Positions 10,935 through 48,884 of a DNA stretch of 64,000 nucleotides are shown here, one piece after another (within the stretch, counting starts at the first letter, position 1; each line of letters starts with the position of its first letter). Both the position numbers and the translations under genes were made by a program. The notes below the pieces were generated by a model. It ran no database searches. It saw only the letters and a program-made list of their open reading frames with translations, and was not told the DNA's origin. The stretch comes from Pisolithus tinctorius (Eukaryota; Basidiomycota; Agaricomycetes; Boletales; Pisolithaceae), in NCBI GenBank assembly GCA_024663395.1, contig JANFAH010000006.1, positions 1,922,001-1,986,000 of the forward strand, read 5' to 3'.

Positions 10935-11053
10935 AAGTTTGCTGTGGTTAGCATTGGCCTGATTGATAGCTCTATGGTTGTTGCATGGTGATTTCTGGCC
11001 ATTGTATGAGTGCTTGAATGATGGAAAATGTCAGATATATGTACCTCTGTGAC
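10935..11053 (-). pseudogene. KDZ2 transposase, detached downstream fragment
   Basis: On the minus strand, an AG acceptor at 10,995 is followed by KSPCNNHRAINQANANHSK, the segment that follows the first catalytic motif in KDZ transposases (the intact copy here has STCSNHRAINAAN). It is the continuation of the half gene at 27,470-28,750: both parts carry the same 7-bp flank, and together they restore the codon and a GT donor. Beyond about 10,934 the similarity ends, so the catalytic core of KDZ2 is lost. Confidence 0.8.
11047..11053. repeat. Target-site duplication, left copy (CTGTGAC)
   Basis: Identical to 27463-27469. Joining the flanks at one copy restores the KDZ2 reading (PHVTE then a GT donor), which supports it as the insertion duplication. 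Confidence 0.85.
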
Positions 11054-11165
11054 CAGACCCTTCAGTCACATGTAATCCAGAAAGTGGGTCATCCAACATG
11101 CACATTTGGTCCTGAAAGTGGGACTAACTGACATCGGCCTATAGACCCTGATGGTGGATAGGCTG
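11054..11165 (+). repeat. Terminal inverted repeat, left
   Basis: Matches the reverse complement of 27,345-27,462 with scattered substitutions and one small indel. Shared blocks include TTCAGTCAC, AAAGTGGGTCATCC, ACATTT, GTCCTGAAA and GGGACTAA. The inner limit is approximate. Confidence 0.8.
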
Positions 11166-11179
11166 ACATGTTGGAGGGA

Positions 11180-11828
11180 GGTTGGCCGACCTCACTGGGG
11201 GATGGATCCACACCCTGGAAGTGGTGTCGGCCGACCTCACTGGGCGATGGACCCACACCCTGGAAGTGGTGTCGGCTGACCTCACTGGGGGATGGATCCA
11301 CACCCTGGAAGTGGTGTCGGCCGACCTCACTGGACGATGGACCCACACCCTGGAAGTGGTGTCGGCCGACCTCACTGGGGGATGGACCCACACCCTGGAA
11401 GTGGTGTCGGCCGACCTCACTGGACGATGGACCCACACCCTGGAAGTGGTGTCGGCCGACCTCACTGGGCGATGGACCCACACCCTGGAAGTGGTGTCAG
11501 CCGACCTCACTGGACGATGGACCCACACCCTGGAAGTGGTGTCGGCCGACCTCACTGGGGGATGGACCCACACCCTGGAAGTGGTGTCGGCCGACCTCAC
11601 TGGGCGATGGATCCACACCCTGGAAGTGGTGTCGGCCGACCTCACTGGACGATGGACCCACACCCTGGAAGTGGTGTCGGCCGACCTCACTGGACGATGG
11701 ACCCACACCCTGGAAGTGGTGTCGGCCGACCTCACTGGGCGATGGACCCACACCCTGGAAGTGGTGTCGGCCGACCTCACTGGGCGATGGACCCACACCC
11801 TGGAAGTGGTGTTGGCCGACCTCACCAC
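11180..11828 (+). repeat. 45-bp tandem array A (about 15 units)
   Basis: Unit core GTGGTGTCGGCCGACC followed by TCACTGG and a variable GGGGATGG/GGCGATGG/GACGATGG, then ACCCACACCCTGGAA. Variation among units is mostly at the GGG/GGC/GAC position and ATCC versus ACCC. The period is a multiple of three, so several frames stay open on both strands; these are not genes. The core GTCGGCCGAC is a perfect palindrome shared with array B. Confidence 0.95.
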
Positions 11829-12109
11829 CTGGAAGTAGGGTTGGCCAAACCCTGAAAATTCCCTTGGCATAATCAATTGCTTGTCAATTTAGATGTTACC
11901 AGAAGTATTGACTCTGATGACACTTCCAGATGGACATACCCCCTGAGACCAGTGTTGGCCAACCTCACTGGGGGGTGGCCTTACCCCCTGAATCCATGGC
12001 CATTCTTCACCTCCAGGTGATGTCAGTGATCTCACAGGGTTTGAAACTTGCAATGAGCATGGGTAGCCATATATAGGGATCCTTTTGATTCACACCATCT
12101 ACAGTTTAT
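11829..12109. other. Spacer with degenerate array units
   Basis: Contains decayed core copies (for example GTTGGCCAACC near 11,955) and the 3' flank of the accessory gene. No gene seen. Confidence 0.6.
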
Positions 12110-14488
12110 TTATAGACCAAGACCCAGAGCTCTCTTGGTTGGTTGACGAGCTCTAGTTGATTTCTTGCTTGCCTCTTCACCCTCCTTTGCCATCTTCTGA
12201 TCAACATCCCCACTGCCTCCCCTTTTTCTTTTCCTCACATCCTTTCTTGTATTCTGGGATTCCTTCATGCCACCCCCCTGGGTGGGACAGGAATCCCCTG
12301 CACTGACCCCAGTTGTTTCCTGTGCACCAATCCCTCTGCTTGAGCCACCAGAATTCTGCTGCAGTCTTGCAACTACCAGCCCCACTGCACCCATAACATC
12401 TTCCCCCTTGTGGATATCAAGACCTGAGCCTAGCAAAAAGCCCAGATTAGCAGCTTCAGGGTCATCTGATTCTATGTCCTGTGCTCTTTTGCACTCCCTC
12501 CACAACAAACCAAATCCCAGTACAATGGTAAGACCTTTTTGGGTGGATGCAAACTTTTCACTTTGCAATTGATACAGTGCCTTCCAGAAGGAATCCCCAT
12601 TGCCATGCATCTCCTGGGGCAAATACTGGGCACTCCAGGCCCAAGATGCCCAGACAGGCAGGTTGACTGGTCCAGCATCAGGTTCCTGTACAAAATGTTT
12701 GTTAACCTGGTATTTGAAGAAAGTTTATCACTTACTGTCTCTGGCAAGCCATCTACAAGCTCAACAAGTTCCTGGTACCTGGGCATGATGCAAAGGGACT
12801 TTAAATATTTCACCCTGTCCCCATTGGCATGACAAGCAGGGCTGGATTCATGAGGGGTATCTTCAGATGGGGCCCTCCCAGAGTCAAGGATATCCTGGGC
12901 CCCTGATGAAGTTGCTATAGGGGTCATACCAGCCCCACCAATTTCTTCCCCTAAATCTGAGGGCTTGGCCTCCACCCCAGCTTCACTGTCCTCCCCAGGG
13001 CTCATCCACTCTCTCTTTTTGGATGGGGTTTTCCTGTTCCAGGGCCTTCCCAATGGCTCGTCCTCCTTTTTGCACTTGATGAATGAAACAATCACCTTAT
13101 CCTCCTCCTCTTGGGAATTCCAATGATTCCAAAGCATCCACATGTCGGCCTTGGTCCATTTTGAAGGATCTTTCATCATGAATCCTTCTGGGATGGAATC
13201 GGAACTCAGATACTCCAAATGGGACTTGATAAGCAGGCCCCAGGGAACCTTGGCCTTGGGCTTCCCTGTAAACTTTGCTATGTTTCCAACTTCCATCAAC
13301 AACTGTAGATGCACTTGACAATCAAGAACATACCATAGGCAGCCTGGAAGACCATTCTTGCCAAACTCTGCTGGACCTTGAGTTTCTGACCAGTCCAAGC
13401 TGGTACCTCTGGGTTTCCTTCATCATCCAAGGCTATCTCCACCTTTGGATTCTCATCATTCAAATCTTCCTCAGCTGAGTATGGAATCAACCTAGGTACA
13501 CATATTACATTGATCACCAATGTTTATCACTTACCAGCTTCAGTCAAAAGATAATTGGTTAACATTTGCTCTCCCTTTAGAACCCAATCCTTGGTGGGCT
13601 CTGAAGACTCTGAGAAGGCCTTCTTCCCATCAGGGGGTTGTGTTTCAAAGCTAGGTTTCTTCATTAGCATTGGATAGACAAGGTAAAGGGGAACCTACAC
13701 TGCCATCTTGATCTGAGAATCAGTAGTCTCATGAGCCAGAAACATCACTATATTTGACCCCATGGTCCTCCTGACTGTTTCAATAAAGTCTCTGGCCATG
13801 TTGGGAAAATTTTTTCTCCTGTACCTGAATTATTGCATGATTAGTATAAGACATTTGAAGTAGACCAGCACTGACAATTCATGAGTTTCTTTTGGAGCTC
13901 CCAACTTATTCCACTTGGAAGCAGCCCTCCCTGCTTCAGCCTTCTTGTCATCTGCAAGAGACTCCCACCACTGTTGGATGATTTTGGTCCTCTGACCTAT
14001 GGTCTTGGGGTCCTTGGTGTCCCTCCTCTCCCTATCATAGGCATCCATGTCCTCTTTGAAGAGCTGCTGGGAGGCAGTAAAATCAGTGAAGGGTTTTCTG
14101 TAATTTCCAGCCTTGGTAGGTCTGGTCCTCTCCTCTCTGCCATCCTCATCCTCACCAGTCCCAGGCTGCTCCTTCCTCTTGTCTGTTGCAGCCAGGATGC
14201 TCTCAATGATGTGTTCCTCATCATCCTGGTCTTCAGGGTCTAGTTCTGGCAAAAACACCCTTCTGATGGCCTAAATACACTTGAGATATGTGAAACTTGA
14301 TGAAAAAGATACCCTACCACTCTCAAGTTCTGGGGCAATTCCACAGATCCTGAAGATGCTTGCTGAAGGATCTGGGATTTCACATCAGCCAGGATCTGGG
14401 CCCTGAGGTCAGGATTCCCTCGGGCATCTGTGTACTGCTCCACATAGGAGGACAGCAGATCAGAGTAGACTTCAGACCAATCAGCCAT
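12110..14488 (-). CDS. KDZ-associated accessory protein (copy 1; one in-frame stop)
   Basis: Minus-strand multi-exon gene starting MADWSEVYSDLLSSYVEQY, then acidic/charged segments (EDQDDEEHIIESIL), a helical block (FKEDMDAYDRERR, IIQQWWESLADDKK, RAASKWNKLGAP), KNFPNMARDFIETVRR, KVEIALDDEGNPEVP, a domain with KWTKADMWMLWNHW, and a long Ser/Gly-rich linker. It ends in a basic tail (KRKRGG, KSTRARQPTKR) like a nuclear-localisation region. The same order of blocks occurs in the gene at 29,401-31,960 beside the other KDZ transposase, so it is a transposon family gene, perhaps DNA-binding (inference from basic tail and helices). A TAG lies in frame at 13695-13697 (after QIKMAV, before VPLYLVYPML), consistent with CAG to TAG. 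I do not recognise a named domain. Confidence 0.7.
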
Positions 14489-14721
14489 GAGAGAATAAAA
14501 TCAGGGGGATAATTAGCAGCACAGATGATGGAGGTTGGAAGCAAGGTGAAAATTTTTCAGCCTTTCCCAATTTAGGCAGGAGGTTGAAGTTTTCGGCCAT
14601 CACTCTTTTAGGAAAGGTACCATTATGGTATGATTGTTTTGATGTATTTGCTATTCACTTTGATTCAGATACCAAGTGCAAAGCAAGGGTAATCGGAAAA
14701 CTATACACATATACCCATGTT

Positions 14722-17700
14722 CTAAATACAATCCATTTGTTTACCTTGGAACATCAATTGGGCCTTTTTGGAAAAGTCAGTCCACATCACTATCTGCTTA
14801 TGAGCATAAGCCTTTTTCCCTGGTTCCAACAATTGTAGAGCCCTTTTCTCCCATATGTCCTTCTGGAACTCAAACCATAAGATGGCCCAAACCATCTCAT
14901 GCCTCACCAATGACAATTCTTCTTTCCACCTGTCCCTTCTTGCCCTTGCTTTGAGCCAGTTGATCCTGTAAACTGCCCCACAATTTATTGGTGAGATTTT
15001 TTTGAGTAGTATTAACACTTACACTCCTCCATTAAACCCCCCTTCTCAGCATTCAGTTGACCCTGTTCACCATCCATCATCCAAAACCATGCCATTTTGC
15101 TGGTTCCCTGCCCAAACCGGTTCTCCTCTGTAACATCCTTACTCACTGCCAGGTCCTGGGGCTGAATAGCCTGATATCTTTGTCCAATCTCTTGATTGGG
15201 TTCCAACTGGAGAATGGCCTGCCTTGCCCTCTGATAACTTCTGACCTGCTTGTTTATCCGAGCCACCACTTTTTGGATGTCCTGCTTGGTTCTTGTACCT
15301 TCCCTAGTTGATTGTGCACTGCGGAAGTTCTGTCTGTATAACATTGCCTTGTGTCCAAGGTTGGTTCGGAGCTGGTCTAGACAATCATTAGCTTGCCCAA
15401 TCCTGAGTTCCATTTCTTCTTTGAGGAGGTCATGAAGGCCAAGCTCCATCAGTTTGGTTGCTCCAATGGATGAGGGCATCCATATACTCATGAGCTCAGC
15501 AGGTAGCTCCTCTCCTTCTTCTGTAGCCTCCCAATCCTCATCATCTTCCCAGTACTCTCCATTGTCATCAATTTCTTCACCTTGCCCAAGGAATGCTGGA
15601 TCATCCTGGGGTATGAAGACATCGTCCACCTCCAAACCTTTGAGAAATGCCTGGCTGGTGCCATGGAATTTGTCAATCCTGGCAGAAAGTCTTTTTCTTT
15701 TCTCTGAGACTTTGATTTCTTGTCTGGTAGACATGTGGCTCTGTCTAAGCTCAGATCTTAGCTGGTCCCTGCAGGTCTGGTTAGCAACCTATTGCTTCTG
15801 GAAACCACAGACCATACTGTGCATCCTCTATGCTAATTCCTTCCACAAGCCAAGCCACAGAACCATGGCTCCCTGGGGACACAGGTGGATTTTTCATGAG
15901 CTTTAACTGCACTTCACCCATGGTAGGGGCTACAGGCCATCAGACATGCCCAGGGTTTCTTAGGAACATACTGACCTTTTTCCCCTTTCAACAAATAAAT
16001 GTCTAGGGAATCACCTCGATTTGCTTCTGCCTCAAGAACATCCGACTCCCATTGGGCAAGTTGGCCAGGGTCTAGAACAGCTGTCAACTGCTCATATGCC
16101 TGATTCATTTCTTCTAGGCACTTGTGTGAGGTCTTGTATTTTTTCAACAGTGCAGGAACTGAGATGTACAGGGTAAATTAACTTCTCTTTGAAGAAAAGG
16201 TCTCTCACCCATGTTGACAATTTTTTTCCAGTTAGAATCTCTCATATGGTCATCATACACTTCTTGTCTGTGGGCCTGAGTCATAGACCTTGCAGTGGGA
16301 GAGATCTTATTGAATGGAGCCCACAATGTCTCCAAAATTTCACCATCCAGATGACCAGCACCCTTGATAAAGTTGAGGCTATATCTTGGAAAGCAAGAGA
16401 GTTTGTGGGCAGCAAGATGAAACTTCCCCACAGCAGGAATGATTTCCAGGGAGGGAGGGAGATGGAGAGAGCAGCTGGATTTTACCCGACTCTGGAAGTT
16501 AATACTCCACTGGCACCCAACATCATAAATGACAAGGGCCTTTGTGATGCTTTCTGAATGATAATCAAGAGCACTGCAGATGGAGTAATCTGTGTTCATG
16601 TACCTAGCACAAAATGAGTTCCAAAGGCTTCCAGTACATCCATCAGGTCCACTCACTTTTCCCCTTTCTGAAAGTCCACCACAGAATGGGGAACAAAGCA
16701 ACCATGCCGAGCACAGGCTGTGGCACCAATCCCAGTGGACCGGAGATTGGACTTGTTAATATTAGCAGCATTGATTGCCCTGTGATTGCTGCAGGTGGAT
16801 CTCTACCAGTACAGTGGGTCATTTAAACTCCATGACCTTGGGACAACTCACCTCCTTGTTATCCAAAGACTGCTCAAGATGGGCCTGGTAGGGCTTTTCA
16901 GCAACCATGTAACCAGTTCCATCTGATAATGACACATCCAACTCAGGCTTGTTCATTTTCATATGCTGAGCAGTGAAGTTGCCATCCATGACATATTGCC
17001 TCATTATGGTATCACTAAGGGGGGAGGGGAGTTAGAAATCAAAACCCTACAGATTATCACTCCATACCTGTCATATCAGGTTTTCCAATCTGGAGGTAAA
17101 TTAATACCTGGTTGTGGGCAGGCAGGACAAAAGAGTGCAAGTTCTCCTTGTCTAGGATCTTGTTCTTTATCATGACCAAAGCCAAACCATTTCCTATGTT
17201 TCAAATCCCTCCACAGTCTGGAAACCCTCATCAGCTCTCGGTACCTGTCCTAATTGGAAATGAATGCATTAATAGAACCCCCTAAGAGCAAATAGTGCAT
17301 GGCACTCAACTGGTATACAGTCAGGAAATGCATTGTTGGTGAACCTCTTCAGCTTCTGATAGAAACTCATAGCTGAAGTCTTGCATTCCAGGGCATCAAT
17401 GAGAAAGTGATTAAGAACATCAAAGGTGAAAGCAGTCTTGGGCTTTGTTATACTGGCTGGAAAGAGTCTTTCCCTGAGTAAATCAAGGTGCCAGTCCATT
17501 GGATCTGACCCAGGGCAATTGCACCAAGAAATCTCATGAGTGAAAATTCCTTCTGTGTGCACTATGGTCATTTTTGATCTGAAGGATCTCCTGCTACCAG
17601 AGGTTAACATGGAGGCTACAGGATATGACTGCCATTGACCTGTAATTGGGAGGCCCTTCCCCAGAAGTATAGCCCAACTCCTCTGAGTCTGGATCCTGAT

Positions 17701-18322
17701 TCTGTCTGTTTTGAGGGCAAGGACGACCCCCATGGCCAATGTGCCAAAGGAACCCAAGTGCCATCAAAGAGGTAGCCTGGTAATGAGTAGCATTCCATCT
17801 TTGTACCTTGTGGAATGGAAGATTTTGATGCACTTTCACAGCACAAGGACCACACCAGGCATGCACACCAATGCAGGACATGCATCTGATACTTCCTTCT
17901 GCCTGACAGCACTGCTCACATATCCCCCCCTTAGCCAGCTGCTCTCCCTCGAGAATGACTTTGAGATATTCTGCTCTCCAAGGCAGCCATTCTCTGATGA
18001 AATCATTTTGACTCTAGGGGATAATTTAGCCAATGCAGTATCAGGCAAAACTTCCCACCTTGGTAACCCTCCTAGTATTTGGGGTATCTTCCTCATCATT
18101 CCAGTCCAAGGTAGGCATGTCAAAGGAGTCTGGGACAACATTTTGGGAGCCTATTGTCCTGGGGGTCCTTGGAGTTGAAGGTTGACTCTGAGATGGGAGG
18201 TAGAGGTGTCTAGCATCCACCTCCTTGTAGGTGTCCTTTCCTCTCCGGGTTTTAGTGACTTCAAATTTATACAAACCTCCTGCAGAGCTTTTGCCAAGGA
18301 CTTTGGTTCTACGACGACACAT
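14722..18322 (-). CDS. KDZ transposase (CxC2 type), copy 1
   Basis: DNA transposase with an RNase H-like fold. Minus strand, many introns. Starts MCRRRTKVLGKSSAGG, then QNDFIREWLP and a CxC2-type zinc region (GGICEQCCQAEG, CMSCIGVHAWCGPCAVKVH). This is followed by LLRERLFPASITKPKTAFTF, DRYRELMRVSRLWRDLK and FCPACPQPGINLPPDW. Core motifs are MDGNF (first Asp, about 16,985), ATACARHGCFVPHSVVDFQ, LVIYDVGCQW (second Asp) and DGEILETLWAPFN (catalytic Glu). The C-terminal part has MELRIGQANDCLDQLRTNLG and AWFWMMDGEQ and ends near 14,722. One TGA is in frame at 17076-17078 just before a GT donor (after DWKT); unless splicing avoids it, this copy is disabled. Family assignment is strong; exact exon ends were not all fixed. 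Confidence 0.88.
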
Positions 18323-18466
18323 GATTGAGCACAGGAAGAGTCAAAAGCAAGGTTTTCAGCTGTATTGAAAATTTTTCATCCCCAAAACAACACCACACAA
18401 GTCCAGAACAAGGTTATCAAATGTATTTAAAATATTTGTACCCAAAAATTGCCACTAAAATGTGTT

Positions 18467-19840
18467 TTAAGTGTATCTGACAGCCAACCCAAGAATGTCC
18501 TTTTGGGTAGTCCATGCTGGTCTTGTGACCTTGAGTCGGTCATGTACTTTGTCCTTCATATAATGCACCAATGCAATTCTTTCTCCCTTCTCCCACTTTG
18601 GCACAGAATGTTGAAGGATTTTTCCTGATAGGAAAATCATGGTGCCTGGGGAATAAGCCAGTTCGGCCCCCAGATCTGGAATAAGGAATTTAGCATTGTG
18701 AGAACCCAGGCTCACTAATGAATCCAGAAGGGTTGGGGTGGATGTGACATCTCGGTGAGAGGGAGTTTCCTGATTGACAATAATATCAATGTTGGTATAG
18801 ACCGATGGCCAATCCAGGGATATCTCATTCTCCACCCTGCCAGCCTTGGCCAACATTGCTTGATCACCAGCCCTGGCCATATCTGGCAATGAGACCTTTG
18901 CTATATTGCTCCAGAAGTGTTCCACATAAGAAATCTTGAGCAGCCATTCCCTATTGGCTTTCTGTTTGAGGGATGTGCTTTGATAGAGTGTATCAACCAA
19001 CCTCTTTAAATTTGTCAGCCCCTACCATGGAAATCACAGCACCTGGACAAACCTCATGAGCCTGTTGGAATGTGGCAGGAGACATGGAAATCCTGCCATG
19101 TCCATACATGACTTGGTCAACAGGCTGATGCTTATGGCCATATCGTTTGTTAAGCTTGCTTTTGTCTTTTGGCTTGTTCTTGGGCTCAGTCTGAAGATTG
19201 TCTTTTATGGAAAGGAGAAGGGAATTGAGAAGTTCCTATGATATAAAAGCTGTAGTGAAGGGTTGTCAGAGAATGAAAACACTCACTATCCGTGCATCTG
19301 GGACAATACCAGGCAGATACCATACTATCACCCTGCCATGCACATCCAGAACTGTGGCAGGAGCATTGATATACCCAATTTTTGGGTTTTCAAAATGGAT
19401 GGTCCTGTCCTTGGCATGCACCAATGGTTCAGAAAACCTGTCTGCATCCCAATGCAACACATCTATTAAGGGTCAGACTTGGATCACTTGGAATTGTTGT
19501 GGAAATCACCTACAGGGATTGAGGATGGCATGTGTAATGACTGCGGATGCCAGCCTAACTTCCAAAGATGTAATAGCATCTGAAGTTAGACCAGATTCCC
19601 CTTGCAATGTTGCCCTGACTTGGGTTAACTCAGCCAAGGATCGAAGTCTATTATCCAACTAAATACATAGCAAGTGTAGCATCACTGCTTATGGCTTACC
19701 TTGGCTTCCTGAGCTGGTGATTTGAGAAAATAGAGCTGGAAGAGATCATAGGGACTGTTCCAAAGGCAGCCTTCAGCATTCCAACCACCATTGTATGCAG
19801 GGAATCATCCATGATGATGTGGGGGGTGTTGGAAAAGTCA
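18467..19840 (-). CDS. TET/JBP-family 2-oxoglutarate/Fe(II) dioxygenase, copy 1
   Basis: Probable 5-methylcytosine (or thymine-type base) hydroxylase of the fungal TET/JBP expansion that travels with KDZ transposons. The last exon (about 18467-19021) holds the double-stranded beta-helix: HRD (Fe ligands), LIPDLGAELAYSPGTM, SGKILQH (third ligand) and GERIALVHYM with the 2-oxoglutarate-binding Arg, then KDKVHDRL. Upstream exons give APATVLDVHGRVIVWYLPG, the N-terminal strand block also seen in copy 2, and KRYGHKHQPVDQVMYGHG. All catalytic residues expected are present and the last exon is open. The 5' end (near 19,840) and two internal exon borders were not fixed. It lies 145 bp upstream of the transposase start on the same strand. 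Confidence 0.85.
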
Positions 19841-20325
19841 AAGGAAAATTTTTCAACCACAAGAAAAATAGTTAAAAATCACTCAGTACATAAGTAGGAA
19901 GTTATTCTCCACAAGGGACCTTGCTTGACTTGGGGGAAGATCCAGAATCCAGAAACCCAACCTAGTCTACTAGATACACCATGTTTCTTGAAACATCTAG
20001 TCATGTAAGCAGGGGCCTGGAATGGTGCAATCAAACTCAGCAGCAGTTGAACTCCAAGTCAATCCAGTCCAGCAATCTCTTGAGCATCATGGGAAACCAT
20101 GGAACACCAATACTAATCTAGCAATCTAGCAACATCCAACAGCTAGGAACACATCCAGACAGCATTTGAAGGGAAGATGTTGGGTTGCTAGTAATGCCAT
20201 TGGCAAGCTCTTGAGCATCAAAGGGAAACCTTGCTTAAGAAGATCAGCCATGGAACACCAGTGCTAATCTAGCACCATCCACCAGCCAGGCAGACTGACA
20301 TGAAACAATACACCAAGTCATTTGC

Positions 20326-20393
20326 TAAGGTTAGGGTTAGAAGCAGACTTGCATGAAGAAATACACCAAGTCTTATGCTAGGGTTAGGGTTAG
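20326..20393 (+). repeat. Short telomere-like TTAGGG runs
   Basis: Two runs (20326-20340 and 20379-20393), each with about two and a half TTAGGG units, inside a duplicated segment of about 53 bp. Too short to show a former telomere. Confidence 0.6.
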
Positions 20394-20856
20394 CACATGC
20401 TTCATTCAAAAAAAGAAGCATAGATTCCCACACAGCATTCAAATCCAATCAAAGCAGTGACATTTACAAGGTCATACATAAATTCAACTACAGTTACAAT
20501 TTCAACTACAAAGGTATAATGGTTTCATAAGAAACCAAGGCTTGCCTGCATTCCAGAGGGGGCCCTCCTCCAGAAGTACAGTTGGGCCAATAAAAACCGA
20601 CCTCAATTCAACCAAGTTCCCAAAAAAGCGCACAAAAGCTGATAACAAAGATCCTAAAAACACATTAGCATCAACACAACTTTGCAAAGTTCACATACCT
20701 GAGGTGCACTCTTTATTCACCAGGAGTCAAAGATAAACAGCTCTAGAAAGTTTATGTCAGTACAACATAGATTATACAGAAGTTGAATACTCACTACACC
20801 AAAGCCTGACCAACTAGCTACTACCAATATATACTAACACATACCACACAAAAAAA

Positions 20857-20976
20857 CGTCATAGGCTGACCCACACAGGTGGGTACAGACCAAATAAAAC
20901 GTCATAAGCTGACCTACAATGTAGGTACAGACTAGCCCCCAGATCCCATGAGCTGGCCTACAATGTAGGCACAGAC
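20857..20976 (+). repeat. Three hairpin repeats (GCTGACC..GGTACAGAC)
   Basis: Three direct copies at about 20857-20890, 20900-20932 and 20945-20976. Each contains an inverted repeat: CCCAC/GTGGG in the first, CCTACAATGTAGG in the second and third. Compensating pairs (ACC..GGT in unit 2, GCC..GGC in unit 3) suggest the hairpin matters. Confidence 0.7.
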
Positions 20977-22124
20977 TATTCCCCCAGACCCAACATATTA
21001 CCCAACAACCAAAAATTGCGCTGGCCAAGCACAATCTAAGGTCAAGGGTAGCCCCTCCCTACATCCTGTAGCTGCAGACTACAGTCAATAGTGAGGCACC
21101 AAGGATGCTGCAAAGTAACGGTAATCAAGTAATGTGAAAATTCTGGGATCAGAGGTGCCACTTACCTTATGACAGCCGAGACGACGGGCTGAGATAAAAA
21201 TGAAGATGACGTAGCACAGAAAACGGGAAAGAGAGAGGGGGAAAGGGAGATGGAGATGGAGGGAGAGGGAGGACGACGGAGGGGAAGCGTCACATCGCAG
21301 AGAAACGCAGTAAGGGAAAAAATATGCCACTGACTGGGGGGGATTTATATACTTGAGTCTTATGTACTGTTGTTTGGCCACAGTCCAACTAGCGAGGTCG
21401 CCGTCAATGTCACGTTCTCGGCCTCAGCGCGTGTTCAGTTGCCGTGAGTGCCGGCAACTTCCTCTGAGTCAGTACTGCGTGTCGTACTATACATCGCGAA
21501 TAGCGATGTCATGTGACTCCACTGTCACCGGATTCGGCTTCTATATACTAAATACTAAATGTTCGCTTGACATTCTCGTAATTGCATTGTCGAGCCGAGC
21601 AAGCACTCCCTCGTGCCGTTGGCTGAGCGGTAGTGGTGGCTTACCCTTGGGATTTCACAGAAAATGTATTGTAGTAGCACTACTGGATCATTTAATACAT
21701 GTAGTCACTTATTGAAACCGGAAATCGGCCTAGCGGCGATGGACCACTCCGTATATAGTCCTACGTAATGTTCCAGAGACGCATCCGAAGTACGGGTAGA
21801 CACGTGTGATAATCATGACAGCCGTGACGTTGTTCATGTCACAATTAAGGTTGTGTCCAAGATTATCATAGGTCTCACTACGTGACCTGTCCAAAATCGA
21901 GATCTGTGCATCCGAGTATCCGGATTGACACAGTCTTTTACTCCTCTCCTCTTGCCACACAGTGTCTCCCTCACCGACCGTCGTTGCGTTATCCCACTCT
22001 CTGGCCCCGCTGCGTCTCAGCGAAATTTTTGGTATGTCGTCGTCCTCTGGATCTCTCGCGCCTCTCCCTCTCTAAACACAAAATAGGTACGTCGTGCTGT
22101 GTCTCCCTTCAAAAAAAAAACAAA

Positions 22125-23395
22125 AAAGGTATGTTGTCGAACCTCTCATGGCTTCAACACTCACATCACACACCAGGACGCTGCCATTCTTCTCAGTCTA
22201 TTGCGCGTTGTTCAGTGTCCCATACTACTCACAAAGCCCGTTCATTCAAAAAGAAGGTAAGTAGCTCGCAGCGTCCCTCTACAACTCACAAAACACCCCC
22301 CTCCTCTCGCCGGGTCTCATCCAAAAAACAGGTATGTCATCCCAGTGCGCGGCGTCTCTCTACCACTCACAGAACACCCTCTTGCCTTGTCTCATCCACA
22401 AAACAGGTATGTCGTCCTACTTCCCAGCATCCCTCTACCACTCACAAAAACACCCCCTTGCCGTGCTTATCGAAAAAAAAGGTATGTCGTCCCAACTTTG
22501 CGGCGTCCCTCTACAACTCACAGAACACCCCCTCGCCGTGCCTTATCAAAAAAACAAAAGGTAAGTCGTCCCAGGTCGCGGTGTCCCTCTACCACTCACA
22601 GAACACCCCCTCGCCGTGCTCATCCAAAAAAAAAGGTATGTCGTCCCAGCTTTGTGGCGTCCCTCTACAACTCACAGAACACCCCCTCGCCGTGCCTTAT
22701 CCAAAAAAAAGGTAAGTCGTCCCAGGTCACGGTGTCCCTCTACCACTCACAGAACACCTCCTCGCTGTGCCTCATCCAAAAAAAGGTACGTCGTCCCAGC
22801 TCGCGGCGTCCCTCTACCACTCACAAAACACCCACAGAACACCCCCTCGCCGTGCCTTATCAAAAAACAAAAGGTAAGTCGTCCCAGGTCGCGGCGTCCC
22901 TCTACCACTCACAGAACACCCCCTCGCCATGCTCATCCAAAAAAAAAAGGTATGTCGTCCCAGCTTCGCGGCATCCCTCTACAACTCACAGAACACCCCC
23001 TCGCCGTGCCTCATCCAAAAAAAAGGTACGTCGTCCCAGCTCGCGCAGCGTCCCTCTACAACTCACAAAACACCCACAGACCACCCCCTCGCCATGCTCA
23101 TCCAAAAAAAAAGGTGTGTTGTCCCAGCTTCGCAGCGTCCCTCTACAACTCACAGAACACCCCCTCGCCGTGCCTTATCAAAAAAAAAAAGGTATGTCGT
23201 CCCAGGTCGTGGCATCCCTCTACCACTCACAGAACACCCCCTTGCTGTGTCTCATCCTACAAAAGGTATGTTGTCCCAGTTCCTGGTGTCCCTGTACCAC
23301 TCACAAAACACACTAGTAGGCTATCAATTCATATCTCCCTCCTGCCACACTGCATCTCCCTTGCTGTGTCTCATCCAATAAGGTATGTTGTTGGA
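22125..23395 (+). repeat. Pyrimidine-rich tandem array, unit about 77 bp (about 16 units)
   Basis: Units read GGTATGTCGTCCCAG or GGTAAGTCGTCCCAG, a GCG-rich stretch, TCCCTCTACMACTCACAGA, ACACCCCCTCGCCGTG, then CTCATCC or CTTATC and a run of A. Unit length varies with the A run and with short CACAAAACACCC insertions. Every unit puts AAGGTAAGT or AAGGTATGT (a perfect 5' splice-site consensus) after the A run. All three plus frames stay open for long stretches because of composition, not coding. Confidence 0.9.
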
Positions 23396-23676
23396 CTTCT
23401 ACTTCATGGTGTCCAGATGATACTTACATATCACCCTCTTTGGTCTGCTTATCCAGTGCCCAGTGTTGTGTAGTTGCATACATTGGCTTGTCTTTTCCAT
23501 AAATATGTAGATATCCATCCCTGCTGCATGATATATGTACTAAACTAAATGCATTTATTGTTATCTTACTGCTTGTCCCCTACACCTTCTGTGTCTTGTA
23601 AAGATAATAAGGTATGCTACTGTTCCCTTCTGTGTCATGTTGCTGCCACTCACTAATGTTGGCATAATACACTCAG

Positions 23677-25264
23677 ATGGTGAAGACCAAGCAGACAGCT
23701 AAGAAGACCACTGGGGGTAGAGCTCCCAGGGTATCTCTTGCTGGTCTGAAAGCTAGGGAAAAACATGCTGCCAAGTCAAGCAAGGCCCATGCTAGGAAGG
23801 CCCCTGTTGCCAAGAAGAGAAGGATGAGGAACTTGGCAAGTCTCTTTTTATATTCCATCCATCTTTCTAACATTCTATGCAGTTCTGTGTGATGTGCAGG
23901 GATGGAGGGACATTGTGGCCTTGTGATCAGGCAGGATGCAGAAGGGTAGTGTGTAACAAGTGTGTTGTAGTACCTGAGGATTGCCTTGCAGAGGTCACCC
24001 AGCTTCCTGTGACCTTCAGGTGTGTTAACCTCCCTTTTATGAATTAATTCCATTGACTCAAACTCTGGATGAACTTCAGGTGTGTTGCCTGTCATTGGAA
24101 AATGACAAGATTTGAAAGTCCTCAGCCCTATTTTGTAAGTGCATATTGCCACCCCAATCACTTCTAACTCCAAGTACAGGGCTTCTACTTGTCAGGCAAG
24201 CCAGTCCTGAAACACCCTCTTGTGGTCATTGGGGGGTTTGAGCATGCCACCACCTCTGAAGTGGCTGGTAACTCTACTGCCATTATCCACCTCCACCTTG
24301 AGTCTCTAGAGCTTGGCCATGCCCCTGTGCATATCCTTCACACCATGTTGCAGGGATATTTCAGACAAGACACCTACCACTTCTCACAACTGTCCTTCAA
24401 CTTTGCCACTGAGGAGTCCAGAGCTGCCTATGACACTGCAGCATCAAAGCTAGCTTCAAGTCTGACTACCTTTGCTAAGGTAGTCATTTTCCTTACTACC
24501 CATACTGATGAAGACAGGGGGGATCTGTTCTCTGGAATGGAGAATAAGGTTCCAATAGCCACAGAGGTCTTTGAGGTAAGTCACCATTGTTTGACTGTCA
24601 CTCCCATCTGACCAGTTGCAGTTTCTGCAAGGCCTTCTGTTACCCCTCTCCAACATTGTCAAGGGTGGAGACCTCATCTTCTTTGTATGTGGTTCTACTG
24701 TAAGGAAGGAGCAGAGCTTCCAAGGACTGAAGGCAGCTGTGCAACAGTAGGTTTTCTTTCAATGTTGGTGGTTATGGCTGACACCATATCAGTTTCAAGC
24801 CAAGGTCCATGTTGCTTTTTGATGCTGAGAGACTTCAACTAGTCACCACCATTCCCTTCCTCATGAGTGTCCTTGACTCCACCCTTGTTCAAGGCTTCCA
24901 TGTCCAAAGTGCAGTCAGGTATGCCCTGAATGACTGTGGTATGTTGGGTAGGCACTCCAACATCATCCTGATGTTGTGGCAGGAGAAGGTAGTGGTGGAG
25001 AAATTTGTCTGGACTGACAAGTTCATCAGGCCTTGGGGACAACAATTGCCTGCCCAGTGCCCTCAGTGTTATAGCATTCAGAAGTGGGAAGCTGGTTGTT
25101 CAGGGCAGACTTATTCCTATGAGTGCAAGAATCCTGGCTGTGGGAAGGACACACAAGGCACATCTCAGCCTCCCCAAACCTATACTATCTGCATGTCCAA
25201 AGGGGCTACCAAACTGACACAGGGAAAGGGGCAAACATCATCCTGGCTGTTGGAATCTTTGTAA
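23677..25264 (+). CDS. Histone H3-tail mimic / PHD-like / caspase-like / Zn-ribbon protein
   Basis: Six exons: 23677-23835, 23883-24019, 24080-24134, 24180-24575, 24622-24746, 24793-25264, giving 447 aa in frame; the first intron has a GC donor. Residues 2-22 (VKTKQTAKKTTGG then RAPRVSLA) align without gaps to H3 residues 1-21, keeping K4, K9, T11, G12-G13 and A15-P16-R17. A basic linker (KSSKAHARKAPVAKKRR) follows with no histone fold. Residues 55-103 form a cross-braced zinc pattern C55-x2-C58, C67/C72, C77-x2-C80, C100-x2-C103, as in PHD fingers. Residues about 118-355 resemble a caspase/CHAT fold: LTTHTDEDRG (His225) and DLIFFVCGS (Cys272). The C-terminus has CPQC (380, 383) and C402/C407. 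It is transposon cargo, opposite in strand to the transposase. Function unknown; the domain calls beyond the H3 match are inference from motif order. Confidence 0.8.
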
Positions 25265-25624
25265 AATACCCTACCTTGATACATATGATATGCATGTACT
25301 ACAATCAAAAATAGCTGCTTTGTGTTTTCAAATTTCATATGACATTGAATGTTCAGAAAAAAAAGTAATTTCCTGCAGGACAATTCCTCCTTAAGTACTG
25401 ATACACAACTGAGTAAATTTGCGCAATGTTAATTCCAATACAATGGCCAGATTGGTAGAGTTAACTTCAATACCACAGGATAAGGATAGGATATAGGATT
25501 TTTCCACAACCATGTGGGTTCAGCCAGCTAACTACCAAGGAAGTAGTGTACTGAGTAATAAGATTGGCCAGCCCCACTAACCCACTAGCAAGATATTGGT
25601 CTTTCTTGCAAAGTGTCTGCCCAA
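25265..25624. other. Spacer between H3-mimic gene and array B
   Basis: AT-rich 3' flank of the gene, then sequence grading into the array. No gene seen. Confidence 0.6.
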
Positions 25625-27345
25625 CCACAACTCCAGGTCATGGTTCATTCCCCCCAGCCACATCAGCTGACCCCACTGCCAGGACATCATCCCTTCCCCC
25701 AGCCATGTCAGCTGGCCCCACTTCCAGGTCACTAATATATCCCATAGCTGGTTTGGCCAACCCCACTTCCAGGTCACTAACGTATCCCATAGCTGTGTCA
25801 GCTGACACCACTTCCAGGTCACTAATTCATCCCATAGCTGTGTTGGCCAACCCCACTTCCAGGTCACTAATCTATCCCATCTGTGTTGGCTGACCCCACT
25901 TCCAGGTCACTAATTCATCCCATAGCTGTGTTGGCCAACCCCACTTCCAGGTCACTAATCTATCCCATAGCTGTGTTGGCTGACCCCACTTCTAGGTCAC
26001 TAATTCATCTCATAGCTGGGTCGGCCGACCCCACTTCTAGGACACTAATCTATCCCATAGCTGTGTCAGCTGACCCCACTTCCAGGACACTAACCTATCC
26101 CATAGCTGCATTGGCTGACCCCACTTCTAGGACACTAATCTATCTCATAGCTGTGTCAGCTGACCCCACTTCTAGGACACTAATCTATCTCATAGCTGCA
26201 TCGGCCAACCCCACTTCTAGGACACTAATTCATTCCATAGCTGTGTCGGCCGACCCCACTTCCAGGACACTAACCTATCCCATAGCTGCATCAGCCGACC
26301 CCACTTCTAGGACACTAATCTATCTCATAGCTGTGTCGGCCGACCCCACTTCTAGGGCACTAATTCATCCCATAGCTGTGTCAGCTGACCCCACTTCTAG
26401 GACACTAACCTATCCCATAGCTGCATCGGCCGACCCCACTTCTAGGACACTAATCTATCTCATAGCTGCATTGGCTGACCCCACTTCTAGGGCACTAATT
26501 CATCCCATAGCTGCATCAGCCGACCCCACTTCTAGGGCACTAATTCATCCCATAGCTGCATCGGCCGACCCCACTTCTAGGGCACTAATTCATCCCATAG
26601 CTGTGTCGGCCGACCCCACTTCCAGGACACTAACCTATCCCATAGCTGCATCAGCCGACCCCACTTCTAGGACACTAATCTATCTCATAGCTGCATCGGC
26701 CGACACCACTTCTAGGACACTAATCTATCTCATAGCTGTGTCGGCTGACCCCACTTCTAGGACACTAATCTATCTCATAGCTACGTCGGCCGACCCCACT
26801 TTTAGGGCACTAATTCATCCCATAGCTGTGTCAGCTGACCCCACTTCCAGGACACTAACCTATCCCATAGCTGCATCGGCCGACCCCACTTCTAGGACAC
26901 TAATCTATCTCATAGCTGTGTCGGCTGGCCTCACTTCTAGGACACTAATCTATCTCATAGCTGTGTCGGCCGACCCCACTTCTAGGGCACTAATTCATCC
27001 CATAGCTGTGTCGGCCAACCCCACTTCCAGGACACTAACCTATCCCATAGCTGCATCGGCTGACCCCACTTCTAGGACACTAATCTATCTCATAGCTGTG
27101 TCGGCCAACCCCACTTCTAGGACACTAATCTATCTCATAGCTGTGTCGGCCGACCCCACTTCTAGGACACTAATTCATCCCATAGCTGTGTCGGCCGACC
27201 CCACTTCCAGGACACTAATTCATCCCATAGCTGCATCAGCCAACCTCACTTCCAGGTCATCAATCCATCCTATAGTCATGTCAGCCGACCCCACTTCCAG
27301 GGAAGTTGATCCATCATCCTGTGACATAGGCCGACCCCACCTTCA
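25625..27345 (+). repeat. 45-bp tandem array B (about 37 units)
   Basis: Unit: GTGTCGGCCGACCCCACTT, CTAGGACACTAAT, CTATCTCATAGCT, with alternations (cTAGGACAC/CCAGGTCAC; ATCTAT/ATTCAT; TGTGTC/TGCATC). Period exactly 45 bp, the same as array A, with the shared core TCGGCCGACCYCACT, but inverted relative to its element end. The long open frame at 25883-27427 is this repeat, not a protein. Confidence 0.95.
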
Positions 27346-27462
27346 CAGTCCAGCCTACCCAACCCTAGGGACCACCGGCCGATGTCGGTTAGTCCCAGTT
27401 TCAGGACGAAATGTACATGTCGGATGACCCACTTTTAGGACTACAAGTGACTGAATCATGTG
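27345..27462 (-). repeat. Terminal inverted repeat, right
   Basis: Reverse complement aligns to 11,054-11,165. The outer end is fixed by the 7-bp duplication at 27463-27469. Confidence 0.8.
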
Positions 27463-27469
27463 CTGTGAC
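27463..27469. repeat. Target-site duplication, right copy (CTGTGAC)
   Basis: Direct repeat of 11047-11053; see there. Confidence 0.85.
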
Positions 27470-28750
27470 ATGGGGAGTGGCCTGCAGGTATGCCTGATAC
27501 TCGGAGTCGGAGACCATGTATCTGCATCCATCCATCATCTGCACCTGGTCTGCTGGATGCCTGTCATGCATATGTTTGGCTTTGAAATTTCTGTCCATCA
27601 CCAGCGTGCGGGCATATTTCCAGCTTCAGAAGGTGAGCGGATGGTGAGTGAGTCGATTCTGGCCTCTCACTGATTCAAATCTTCTGTCAGGTCGACATTG
27701 ATACCCGGCTGTGGACATGTTGCGCAAAATAACGCTAGGTCACCTCGCTTGTGCGTGTCTGTGCATTCCAAGATGCTGCTCCATTTCATCAGTTTCAGGA
27801 GTCGCCATTGCCATGCGACTCGCAGCAACTCGCGGTACCTGTCCTGTTTGCATGAAGTCATTAGACTGGTTAGTAAAGACAATTTTACTACGATCACTTA
27901 CTGGAACCAAGTGAGGAAACATGGCAGACGTGATCTGGCGCAATTTGCTGTAATAGTTCATCCCGGTTGTCCTGCATTCAAGGTTGTCTCTCACGAAATC
28001 ATCCAAAACTGCAAATGTAAACATAGTGCTGGGTTTTTCGAAGGTTGCAGGAAATAACTTCGCTCGGAGTAACTGAATTGGGTAGGCTTCGGCATCTTCG
28101 CATTGGCACCAACGTACTGGGATGAAATGCACCCCGGTGACATCGACCATGGTGAGATATTTCGACCCGACAGGTCGCCGCAAGTGGGGTGGCATATCAT
28201 CCACGTCTTCCCATTCCTTTCCATCAATTGGGCAGGTCCCGCTAGCACAACTTGCACTTGGCAGATCCGATGGACAAATTGCTCCACTGTGCCTGAGATG
28301 GAGCTCAGCCCCTGTCTATGGCCCGCTTTGTGATTGTCACCCGACTTCATGGACTGATCTCTCACCATGTGCAATGCTGATTCCTCAAAGAAGTTCCCTG
28401 CCCATTGCTGGACTCTGTGGAACAGCAAGCCCTGATGGGTAACCCTGCAGCATTCCTTGCAGAACAGTGGCTGGTGGATGCAATCAGGACATCTGTAACC
28501 CCCTTCCGCTCCGCACCTGGCACAGTTCTGTGGCTTGGGGGGTGCTTCCAGATCCAAAAGGACCTTCATGAATTCCTCCTTGTGTGGAAGCCACTCTCAG
28601 ATATAATCATTCTGTGTCTGACAATTGGAGTGAGCTTGGTTGTATGCCAGAAGGATGTCTTGGCACCTTCTTTCGAGGTAACTGTAATGGCTCTACAGGT
28701 GGGGCATCATTATCATGTTGCATGTCAAATGCATCCTCAATGGGATCCAT
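27470..28750 (-). pseudogene. KDZ2 transposase, N-terminal half, interrupted
   Basis: Minus strand. Starts near 28750 (MDPIEDAFDMQHD), then QNDYI, an in-frame TGA (28597-28599, where copy 1 has Arg), EWLPHKEEFMKVLLDLE, and the CxC2 zinc region (NCARCGAEGGYRCPDC, FCKECCRVTHQG). Next come LLRAKLFPATFEKPSTMFTF, DRYRELLRVAWQWR, FCATCPQPGIN and MDRNFKAKHM with the first catalytic Asp. The reading ends TPHVT exactly at the inserted 16.4-kb element; the next exon is at 10,935-10,994. The rest of the core is missing from the window. Clearly a KDZ transposase, clearly dead. Confidence 0.87.
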
Positions 28751-37760: not shown

Positions 37761-38060
37761 GTAATTTGGCGCACAGGCTACCCATGTGTTGTGACTAAGC
37801 TGACTACATGGGGTCTGCCATCGACATCAAATGCAGGAAGGGGTGAAACGTAGTGGGTAGATGCAGCACGACAGAGCGCCTCCCTGTTGTCGTCTTGCAC
37901 TGGCCAAGCCAACGTAGCATCTTTGATCACACGCAGATGAGAACGCAGATTTCATACAAGAGGGAGACACAAACCAATGTGGGAGATGTCGTCTGGGTCA
38001 TCATCCTCGTCCTTTTTCTATATATCACGAGAGATCAGTTGTAATCAGGTGCCGACGACA

Positions 38061-39244
38061 CTGAGGATTGTGAAGACTGGACAGCCACTCTCTCTGAGGT
38101 GGACCTTGTGACATTCCAATGCGATCAACTTTCAGCACGAGAACAAGCTCACGCAAAACAGGCTATTGCCATAGCACTGCACTATGGGGTGTTCACTGCC
38201 AGACCCCCCACCCTGCCTTCAGATAATTATTCATATCGAATAGCTGTAGGAGGGGACGTACCTCAACTGGAAGGATGGATGACCGCCATGCATGCCATGG
38301 TGGATAGTGCCAACCAAAACCAGATGTCTGTCATGGCCGACGATGAAATGGACCAGGGCAGTGTCATCAAAAACGTTGGCATGACAGGCATAGAAGCTGG
38401 AGGTGCCTACATGCTTGCACAACTGGTGGGTGATGAAAACAGACTTGAGCCAACTGATGTGGATGACCTGTTAGAAGATCAACGGCAAGCCTACGACATC
38501 ATCGACTGGCACTTACAACAGTTTGTCACAGGTGGGTGTCCTGATCAGCTGCATATGATCATTCCAGGGGAGGATGGTGTTGGCAAGTCGAAAATGATAC
38601 AAACAATTATGGACAATTTTGCCCACCGAGGAGTTAGTGGTATGCTTGTGAAAGTGGTGTACACAGGCATTGCAGCGTTGGTGATCGACAGCAAGACTTT
38701 GCACAATATAGGTACGGTCACTCGGTGTAATCCATACGGTGTCTAAGGGAGTGCTCACAGGCATGATACCGCTAAACAGTGGAAAACAATCAGCTCAAAC
38801 AATTAAAAAGCTGGAAAATTTCTGGCATGAGAAAGCCTATCTTATCATCGATGAAATGTCGATGCTATCTCGACCCTTCCTGGCCAAACTTTCCAACATC
38901 ATCTGTCACACACGAACAGGGAGTGACGCCACATTGACTGATCTTCCGTTTGGAGGGCTGAACGTTATCATGGTTGGCGATTTCCATCAATTCCCGCCCA
39001 TGGCGACCAAAGCATCCACACCATTATTTTGGCCATGTAATGTGGAAAATGATACACACAAGGAACTTGTCAGATGTCATATCTATGAACAGTTTGACGT
39101 CGTCGTCTGCCTAAAGACACAGGTGTGAGTCACCGATGTGGGCTGGTGCGATCTCCTTTGCCACATCCACAACGGATCCTGCAGCAAACATGAGATAAAT
39201 ATGCTGCGGGGACTTGTCCTGGAAAATCCGACCTGTCCACCGAC
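38061..39244 (+). pseudogene. PIF1-type helicase, N-terminal part (split gene)
   Basis: Superfamily 1B helicase related to PIF1 and to Helitron helicases. Reads LSAREQAHAKQAIAIALHYG, DDLLEDQRQAYDIIDWHL, Walker A PGEDGVGKS, KVVYTGIAALVI, an intron at about 38712-38760, MIPLNSGKQSAQTI, Walker B LIIDEMSML, MVGDFHQFPP and CSKHEINMLRGLVL. It stops at NPTCPPT where an LTR-like sequence starts; the same reading resumes at 51,189. The 5' part, where a Rep/Helitron-type N-terminus could lie, is replaced by the 85-bp array, so a Helitron origin is only possible. Confidence 0.82.
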
Positions 39245-39287: not shown

Positions 39288-41104
39288 TGTCACACACCAA
39301 AGGTGTTGTGGACATGGTTACAGCTGACTCTGCCTAACTCGTTGACGAGTTGTGCACAATGCCCAAGCATGCAGATGAAGACTAAAGGCCTCATGCGTAG
39401 AAAGACTGTTGGACGTGAACAGTCATCCTTCGCACAAGAACGAGTCATCGGTGCTAAAGAGAGAAGAGGAAGCGAGTTAAGCGCGCATTAAAAGTTTTTA
39501 GCGCCCGTGTACAGCATTCCGGTTTTCGTCGTATCTCTGCCGTTTCCAAAGATATCAACTCGGTTCACATACTCGCTTAAAGTGCTCAGCCCCACGATTC
39601 TTCCTTCCAAATTTGGAGAGGATCCTCGCACCCTGCGCGTTTCTACAGCACTCCATCCATCAAACGCTCATTTCGCTAAGTCCATCAATCATGGCCACCT
39701 CTTCATCAGTCATCTCGCTTGTCTCATTTGCCAGAGACAGTGGCTACGTATATCTGCCAGGCATTCCCACCAGCTTCCGTCCTGAAGCCCCCTGGTTCAT
39801 CCCATCATTGTCAGCCCCATCTCATCCCATGCAGCTTGGTCAGCGTGTTCTCCTTGTCAGTATGACTTCCAGAAGGACGTTCTTTGGTCGCCTCAGGTCT
39901 GTCACTCGGTTAGAAAGGTCTTATGTGGTCGTTTCAGTCTCCCCGGTTGATGAAGCATATGGATCATTCCTCCCTGCTCCCTGCACCGTCTTTATTCCAA
40001 TCTCGTCCATCATTCTTCCTGCATTGCGACAGCTGCAGTATAATCTACTGTCCTCCAGCCTCCCTGATCGCATTCATGACGAGTATGACATGCATCTTGC
40101 CTTCTTACTGCAAGATCCAGCAGAAGACGTCCCCCCTTCTCCTCCTTCTCCATCAGAGCCCCATTCATGAAGTTTTTGTTAACTTCACTGAGAGGATGGA
40201 AGGGTGGGAGACGCAATCACGTATGCTCTCATTGCCCCACAGACCCCCAACGCCCTAGCCCCCTTTGACACCTGACTCATGCCCTTCAATTCTGGAATTA
40301 ATACTTCCCTATCTGGAAACACCATCCATCTGTCATGCCATCTTTGGATCTAGAGATGTCTCCGCCGAGATCTAACTTGCATCGCCACCCCCTAATGTGA
40401 TATCAGTGCGCTTACTCAGTTTCTGATTCTATTTGACTCATTTTGTGATATTTTGACTATCCTTGACTCGTTCATTGCCAATACTTACCAATCCTCTTTG
40501 CTTGCTTACTTATCGTTTCTCGCTTACTCATCATGATTACTCAGTCCTTACTCATTACTTACCAGGTGTTTGTGCCTTGTTTGTCACAAGCTGTGCTTCC
40601 CCCACAGTATATAAACCCCCATGTACTTAGCTACCCACAATCAATCAGAATCAATTCAGAAGCAATCCAGAAGTCAGCTCAGCTCAGCATATCTCGTCAT
40701 CGACAGTTGAGGCTCATTTGGAAGAGTCTATCTGTCTTCATTTATATCATTGTATCATCAGTGCTTAGTCAGCAACCTCTTGTTTAGTCATCCATCCACT
40801 CCTGCGTAACTCGTCATCGACTTGTGCCAGGAGCACGTCCTATCGAAATCCATTTACTCCCAAGTCCTTTCAGCTGAACACCCCTGCTCTGTTCAGCATC
40901 CCCTTCTCAATCAGCGTTCATTCATCCTCTCCTGCGTAACTCATCGACGACTTGCGCCAGGAGCCCTCTACTTGAAGTCCCCCCCCCACACATTTAGGTT
41001 TCTCTGCACTCCAGGTTCCGCGGAGGCAAACCACCACTCGCTCTTATTTGTCTTTTGTGTTGGATTTGTTTGGTTTTCACCAGCATTCCTCACTTTGACT
41101 CACA
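39288..41104 (+). repeat. Gypsy 5' LTR
   Basis: 1,817 bp; TATATAAA near 40,608 is the likely promoter box. Compared with the 3' LTR only about four substitutions were noticed, all transitions (near 39,354, 40,028, 40,936 and 40,943). Contains short open frames identical in both LTRs, not called as genes. Confidence 0.95.
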
Positions 41105-41106
41105 TC

Positions 41107-41124
41107 TGGAGCCCACCGCGAGGG
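41107..41124 (+). other. Gypsy primer-binding site (candidate)
   Basis: TGGAGCCCACCGCGAGGG starts with TGG two bases after the LTR, as needed to pair with a tRNA 3' CCA end. The tRNA was not identified. Confidence 0.6.
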
Positions 41125-41204
41125 GTGGTTATTCCTGGATCAAGAACCCTGCTCGTTCAGCCTATTGAAACTTGTCTCTAAAACCCACTTGATATCTTGC
41201 TACT

Positions 41205-48762: not shown

Positions 48763-48884
48763 TTTCCCTTTTTTCATTTCTTACGATACTGATTGCCTGT
48801 CATTCCTTCATTTTCTTTTTGTTTTCCCTGGGTTCCCTGCATTGGTCGCAATCGGGGACGATTGCATTTCTTCTTGCCGGTGGA

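Follow-up and report, generated by a model that had tools for sequence, protein, structure and literature searches.

A KDZ transposon protein of Pisolithus tinctorius carries a conserved histone H3-tail mimic in front of a PHD finger and a predicted caspase-like domain

We analyzed a 64,000-nucleotide stretch of the genome of Pisolithus tinctorius (contig JANFAH010000006.1, positions 1,922,001 to 1,986,000; hereafter the window, to which all coordinates refer) and found that a KDZ transposon in it carries a gene for a protein whose N-terminus imitates the tail of histone H3. The six exons of this gene, located at 23677-25264 on the plus strand, join in frame to encode 447 amino acids followed by a stop, and the order of parts is an H3-like tail, a PHD finger, a domain predicted to adopt a CHAT/caspase fold, in which a His/Cys pair is conserved, and a C-terminal zinc ribbon. 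The element, the gene, the support for its splicing, this architecture and the constraint on the H3-like tail across genera are documented below. Tentatively, we propose that the protein is an accessory anti-silencing chromatin protease of KDZ transposons, whose tail would engage the host proteins that bind the tail of H3.

Residues 2 to 22 of the protein align to residues 1 to 21 of H3 with 14 of 21 identities and four conservative changes; the original prediction had the conservative changes right and counted one identity too few, 13. Chance likeness was ruled out both by shuffling, since none of 300,000 shuffled tails had more than 11 identities to H3, and by conservation between genera. 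In a phmmer comparison of the whole protein with PDB chains, the 60 matches listed of 133 (E <= 10) were H3 tails or H3, with a best E of 0.0024. Conservation of the tail in homologues had been named beforehand as the test able to refute the mimic, and the tail is indeed kept across genera. Ranked against six Suillus and Boletaceae homologues, out of 12 chosen from a full set that includes fragments and doubtful gene models, it is the best conserved of the 427 stretches of 21 residues in the protein; the protease core is 25-35% identical in these six and the PHD finger 41-47%. It is the amino acids of the tail rather than the DNA that are conserved, because subfamilies A and E have 14 of the 21 tail residues in common and 11 of those 14 codons differ.

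Residue by residue conservation was then counted in 140 homologues (141 less P0141, a true histone). K4 is kept in 109 of 120 aligned homologues, Q5 in 110 of 121 and K9 in 109 of 120 (about 91%), and R17 in 104 of 121. At position 8, 65 of 120 homologues have K and 43 have R; V and A are frequent at position 10, and V replaces the K of H3 at position 18 in 91 of 119. Since R8 is more often replaced by K, K18 mostly by V and position 10 is free, the kept epitope is better read, on these alignments, as one centred on K4-Q5 and therefore of the H3K4 type. Of the suggestion that the tail lures the H3K4/K9 machinery, the K4 side is thus the better one and the K9 side is weakened; a K9-methylation lure as the main role was downgraded. 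Of the 104 homologues that align with Met1, 102 have A, V, T or P as residue 2. As these four residues permit removal of the initiator methionine, the mature N-terminus would begin like that of H3. Some tails depart from this pattern. The P0115 lineage has kept residues 1-9 and lost both TGG..APR and R17 (its tail reads ...AKPAKL), and diverged tails in the P. tinctorius genome itself read MARTKQTAKKVTGGHAPRLNL, MPRTKQTAKKSNGGVAPRVTL and, in a degenerate form, MVRTRSSTKNAKGGSASRVSI. In the subfamily of L018 and L019 the tail has degenerated to MV[RH]TRSSTKN[AT]KGGSASRVS while the body is still recognisable, a natural case of a protein devoid of K4.

Because different relatives keep different H3-matching residues, the comparison suggests that the mimic descends from a captured H3 tail rather than from convergence. 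By eye, exon 1 of the host H3 ends after Q19, near the point where the similarity of the mimic stops, which fits exon capture without proving it. The possibility that the gene is a genuine H3 gene was rejected: the four H3-type loci found in the exon-1 search described below (L022-L025) differ from the mimic, and the three of them with a normal start have an intron after Q19 (by eye). As originally predicted, no histone fold follows the tail; PF00125 was not among the four Pfam families matched by 49 members at E <= 0.005. Of note, P0141, from an ENA contig, is a true histone H3 variant whose tail has R8K (MAPTKQTAKKSTGGKAPR), and it is unrelated to the transposon protein.

Exon 1 (23677-23835) encodes the methionine, the H3-tail mimic (residues 2-22) and a basic linker and ends at a GC donor. 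Exons 2 (23883-24019) and 3 (24080-24134) encode the first part and the end of the PHD finger, exon 4 (24180-24575) the first half of the CHAT/caspase-like domain with His225, exon 5 (24622-24746) the part of this domain with Cys272, and exon 6 (24793-25264) the end of the fold, the zinc ribbon (CPQC...C...C) and the stop, all on the plus strand. The predicted six-exon splicing and the GC donor are both supported. By eye, subfamilies B and C have a GT donor at the same place as the GC donor of the window copy. In addition, P0025, from a contig of 1705 nucleotides (source given as 'lgn'), holds the whole frame without introns and without an insertion at any intron position, and P0027 (1505 nucleotides) holds an intron-less frame except at its C-terminal end, where the sequence is unrelated. 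We infer that these two contigs are transcripts that link the tail exon to the PHD exon. Together with the homologous intron of subfamilies B and C they rule out misjoined exons. In the genome of P. tinctorius the frame is open in 36 of 40 close exon-6 rows, that is, rows covering query residues 216-372 (or 217-370) at >=96% identity.

We also considered that the protein might start further upstream, with the tail then lying inside it. An upstream extension is indeed present in several gene models of the mimic protein from P. orientalis and P. tinctorius, and position 1 is not Met in 14 of 118 aligned homologues (for instance P0041, P0058, P0061 and P0072), but Met occupies this position in the other 104. 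A tandem array of 75-76-bp units lies upstream of the mimic gene (22266-23311, +). Its units hold a donor-like GGTATGT and an acceptor-like CCCAG, and in P. orientalis models such as P0001-P0005 many of them are joined by splicing to give the mimic a long additional N-terminus; this array-derived part is probably an annotation artefact.

The prediction of a PHD-like pattern of eight cysteines is borne out by the homologues, where 68-91 of the 80-105 sequences aligned at a given Cys retain it. An alignment of 13 chosen segments places eight zinc ligands in PHD order, and a profile of the region retrieves PHD/ADD fingers from the PDB (CHD4, E 9.7e-8; ATRX, E 1.2e-6). Further downstream, His225 is conserved in 130 of 134 homologues and Cys272 in 126 of 129. 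In the AlphaFold2 model of P0025 the corresponding residues stand at the ends of core strands, His261 after strand 253-259 and Cys308 after strand 302-306. AlphaFold2 together with VIA-align supports a caspase-type alpha/beta fold, and plain Foldseek supports it weakly; VIA-align lists some families only, so that a family missing from its output is not thereby ruled out. These results agree with the caspase/CHAT-like domain originally proposed around His225 and Cys272, and we regard the region as a putative peptidase whose fold is predicted to be of the CHAT/caspase kind and which retains the His/Cys pair. CHAT and Peptidase_C14 were not among the four Pfam families matched by the 49 members at E <= 0.005, Pfam scans of the members found no single family covering the whole protein, and an NCBIfam scan gave weak matches only. 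Among these, the zinc ribbon has a weak match in P0025 (E 0.00082) under the family cut-off. In the second model the mean pLDDT (predicted local distance difference test) is 36 for residues 1-10, which are disordered, and 77, a moderate confidence, for residues 11-20, corresponding to H3 10-19. A tail bound in its own PHD finger was not seen in the AlphaFold2 models, which leave residues 1-10 unplaced.

That the gene sits inside a KDZ element together with a TET/JBP gene, as originally described, was confirmed by the borders of the element and by Pfam. The element is complete, spans 16,409 bp (11054-27462), starts with CAGACCC and ends with CATGTG. Its imperfect terminal inverted repeats match at 49 of the 60 outer bases, a value that shuffles did not approach (<= 26), and it is flanked on both sides by the 7-bp target-site duplication CTGTGAC (11047-11053 and 27463-27469). 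The borders are further supported by pieces of a second copy on contig C2 (both ends) and of a third, C19 (left end only), which match at 93-99% and are followed by unrelated flanks; by eye, the C2 copy has a 7-bp duplication of its own, TACCAGT. Subterminal tandem arrays of 45-bp units lie inside both ends, with 14.3 copies on the left (11184-11825) and 35.3 on the right (25716-27301). On the minus strand the element carries open reading frame 2 (ORF2; 12110-14488), which has several exons, was located by tblastn of P0074, P0075 and P0129 and has no Pfam match at E <= 0.1. The same strand also carries part of a KDZ transposase domain (PF18758; 16144-16755, E 1.9e-28), a CxC2 cysteine cluster associated with KDZ transposases (PF18803; 17269-17763, E 5.3e-24) and a TET/JBP dioxygenase domain (PF12851; 18467-19021, E 3.2e-9, 36.7 bits for a cut-off of 34.9). 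KDZ was reportedly defined in a 2014 PNAS paper. We call the element no more than Kyakuja-like, by its 7-bp duplication and 5'-CA..TG-3' ends.

The genome of P. tinctorius (92.5 Mb, 221 contigs) was searched with exon 1. This search gave 57 matches at E <= 10, of which 42 are 87-100% identical, the window included; the rest are further pieces, diverged subfamilies and the four H3-type loci. The genome thus holds some 40 close copies of the mimic and several old subfamilies. Homologues occur throughout Boletales, the order of P. tinctorius itself: the set of 140 includes proteins of several Pisolithus species and of Suillus, Rhizopogon, Boletus, Lanmaoa, Butyriboletus, Chiua, Melanogaster and Paxillus, besides more remote ones from Dentipellis and Abortiporus. 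Linkage was scored for 52 of the 57 exon-1 rows (without the four H3-type loci and the second piece of one locus) against 42 KDZ rows, obtained with the element's own KDZ piece, 25 TET rows and 39 ORF2 rows, each set taken from a longer list that was itself cut short, so that all counts are lower bounds. In subfamily A a KDZ gene lies divergently upstream within 25 kb in at least 36 of 44 rows and within 10 kb in at least 29, TET within 10 kb in at least 21 and ORF2 within 15 kb in at least 26. Among the eight diverged rows, C42 (subfamily B) has ORF2, KDZ and mimic in the same order and at similar spacing; compared with the window type it is 82% identical in KDZ, 71% in ORF2 and 53-55% in the body of the mimic. 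In a gene model of Suillus plorans the mimic is fused to a relative of ORF2 (E 1.5e-11 to window 14153-13875). On this model the partnership of mimic and ORF2 may reach beyond Pisolithus, and the fusion raises the possibility that the two work together.

The anti-silencing protease is the explanation we lean towards, still at some distance from conviction. After removal of Met the N-terminus would resemble unmodified H3 around K4. The PHD finger, possibly of the type that reads H3K4me0, would bring the protein to chromatin, and the tail would engage host binders or modifiers of the H3 N-terminus. The CHAT/caspase-type cysteine protease would then cut what is nearby, be it H3 or a silencing or chromatin factor of the host, while the TET/JBP protein of the same element, judging from its family, would remove DNA methylation. 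Two considerations favour this explanation. The part that stays H3-like longest is probably read by a partner that does not change, as holds for proteins that bind genuine H3; and given the TET/JBP gene that the element also carries, resisting silencing is the simplest purpose. A more specific version, 'bait and cleave', is appreciably more doubtful: the H3 copy would lure H3K4 readers or writers to the fused protease, which would destroy them, and TET/JBP would strip DNA methylation, so that a single mobile element would act on silencing at both levels.

Several findings weigh against the anti-silencing explanation. The tail of subfamily D has K4R and Q5S, and K4 is missing in Dentipellis and Abortiporus, the two most distant relatives, where other H3-like parts persist (SAKKSTG..APR in Abortiporus, APRK.L in Dentipellis). 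In the window copy, A1 and R2 of H3, residues used by canonical H3K4 pockets, are replaced by V1 and K2. Pfam recognises the PHD finger weakly, with 4 of 29 members matching at E <= 1 (best 0.0018), and more members match CK_II_beta than any other family (13 of 29 at E <= 1, best E 0.0011). Among the matches listed, 8 of 44 subfamily-A rows have no KDZ within 25 kb and 7 of the 8 diverged rows show no such linkage. Finally, the ratio of nonsynonymous to synonymous changes (pN/pS) is 0.57 overall but exceeds 1 in two parts, the protease (1.09) and the linker (1.39). For the tail (4 synonymous, 2 nonsynonymous) the ratio is 0.19, for the PHD finger 0.30 and for the C-terminal part 0.31. As these values come from 11 of some 44 subfamily-A copies with 36 synonymous and 71 nonsynonymous differences in all, the selection signal at the level of copies is weak evidence.

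The tail might instead act in cis, as a chromatin-gated switch that lies on its own PHD finger or protease and keeps the protease inactive until genuine unmodified H3, or modification of the mimic K4, displaces it. The ARTK of the H3 tail is read by fingers of the CHD4/ATRX/AIRE/BHC80 type, which the PHD finger resembles in the profile comparison; the higher pLDDT of residues 11-20 compared with residues 1-10 indicates that some of the tail may lie packed against the rest of the protein, and competition with real H3 would also keep the tail H3-like. However, the K4 part is precisely the one left unplaced by AlphaFold2, the length of the linker varies widely among homologues, and conservation of the tail far exceeds that of the PHD finger. 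Binding of the tail to its own PHD finger, offered in the original prediction as autoinhibition, therefore found no support in the models, and by itself it fails to explain a tail that stays H3-like while the PHD finger falls to 41-47% identity. Such binding alone would let tail and finger drift together, so that an external H3-reading partner fits better, and we consider the switch a possibility of rather low probability. Less likely again is a protease that clips the H3 tail and whose own tail is an autocleavage or product-like segment, cut for example after R17. The conserved R17 and V18 would form a possible cleavage site, clan CD enzymes with a basic P1 exist, and reported clipping of the H3 tail in yeast and animals offers a precedent, but R17 is gone in the P0115 lineage, which has kept residues 1-9.

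We think it unlikely, slightly more so than clipping, that the tail enters an LSD1- or COMPASS-type pocket and recruits or titrates the enzyme at the chromatin of the element, with the protease acting separately. The tail shares its N-terminal position and a small second residue with the SNAG domains (PMC5896174), but its K4 is kept rather than replaced, which would make it a substrate and not a blocker, and the protease is left without explanation. The recurrent gene order with KDZ and ORF2 would suit a transposition cofactor, in which the protease processes the transposase or ORF2 while PHD finger and tail steer integration to H3K4-type chromatin, as in the precedent of RAG2-type PHD targeting. 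Between subfamilies A and B the mimic has changed more quickly than the transposase (53-55% against 82% identity), and we judge this role improbable. Hardly credible at all is an inert relic, in which an H3 exon 1 became fused by accident and persists through recent copying only. The end of the coding part of host exon 1 at Q19 agrees with such a fusion, but the tail has been retained between genera despite codon turnover, intron-less contigs exist, and most close exon-6 rows are open.

In the remainder of the window, a second KDZ-type frame with a CxC2 cluster (27740-28596, minus strand, by Pfam) lies directly beyond the right end of the element; as it is outside the right border it belongs to another insertion. 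From the list of open frames, 39502-49767 is a probable long terminal repeat (LTR) retrotransposon, with long gag-pol-like frames between two almost identical ones, 39502-40170 and 49099-49767, that are the candidate LTRs. Helicase-like pieces lie on either side of it (38045-38746 and 51402-52064) and may stem from a single gene that it interrupted.

Each part of the protein is known alone. To our knowledge no other mobile element encodes a single protein that combines nearly the whole N-terminal tail of H3 with a chromatin reader and a domain of caspase fold. The proposed role recalls VANC of VANDAL transposons, described as a transposon-encoded anti-silencing accessory protein (PMC5735166, PMC10398659). 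We know of no sequence or domain relation to VANC. TET-bearing Kyakuja DNA transposons of Agaricomycotina are described with a KDZ transposase, TET/JBP, a 7-bp duplication and 5'-CA..TG-3' ends (Kojima 2025, PMC12730594), all of which the window element has. It differs in its subterminal arrays, ORF2 and the H3-mimic protein, and in having imperfect inverted repeats, whereas two Laccaria families are described without them (PMC12730594). The words caspase, protease, peptidase, PHD, Pisolithus and Suillus do not occur in the main text of that paper (PMC12730594). The N-terminal SNAG domains of SNAI1 and GFI1 likewise are H3-tail mimics on zinc-finger proteins and occupy LSD1 (PMC5896174). The resemblance is an analogy only, since the mimic here covers about 20 H3 residues with K4, is transposon-borne and is followed by a PHD finger and a protease-like domain. 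Short H3-like segments meant for chromatin proteins also occur in influenza NS1, a viral histone mimic, and in G9a/GLP, whose automethylation sites are described as cellular ones. Mimics of the NS1/G9a/GLP kind are short ARK-type motifs, whereas this tail is K4-type, N-terminal, borne by a mobile element and accompanied by a reader and a protease-like domain. The predicted fold and the His/Cys pair are those of SAVED-CHAT, C11 and caspases, here fused to a PHD finger and an H3 tail in a eukaryotic transposon. The PHD finger shares the pattern C-x2-C ... DGG-x-L ... with the zinc fingers of CHD4, ATRX, AIRE and BHC80, but its ligands are all Cys and the protein's own tail resembles the ligand of such fingers. 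The architecture of H3 tail, PHD finger and caspase-like domain was not found described among the papers listed, a part of the literature, and an earlier mention, for instance in the 2014 paper on KDZ, is possible.

The H3 copy is kept in the proteins of other mushrooms, which suggests a new route by which transposons reach the host silencing machinery. Because the tail has stayed H3-like while the core diverged to 25-35% identity, the identity of a host partner can be addressed directly with a 20-residue peptide. If the protein is anti-silencing, it would be a eukaryotic transposon weapon against chromatin proteins as well as DNA methylation, and it could partly account for the way TET-bearing KDZ elements have spread through the genomes of mushrooms.
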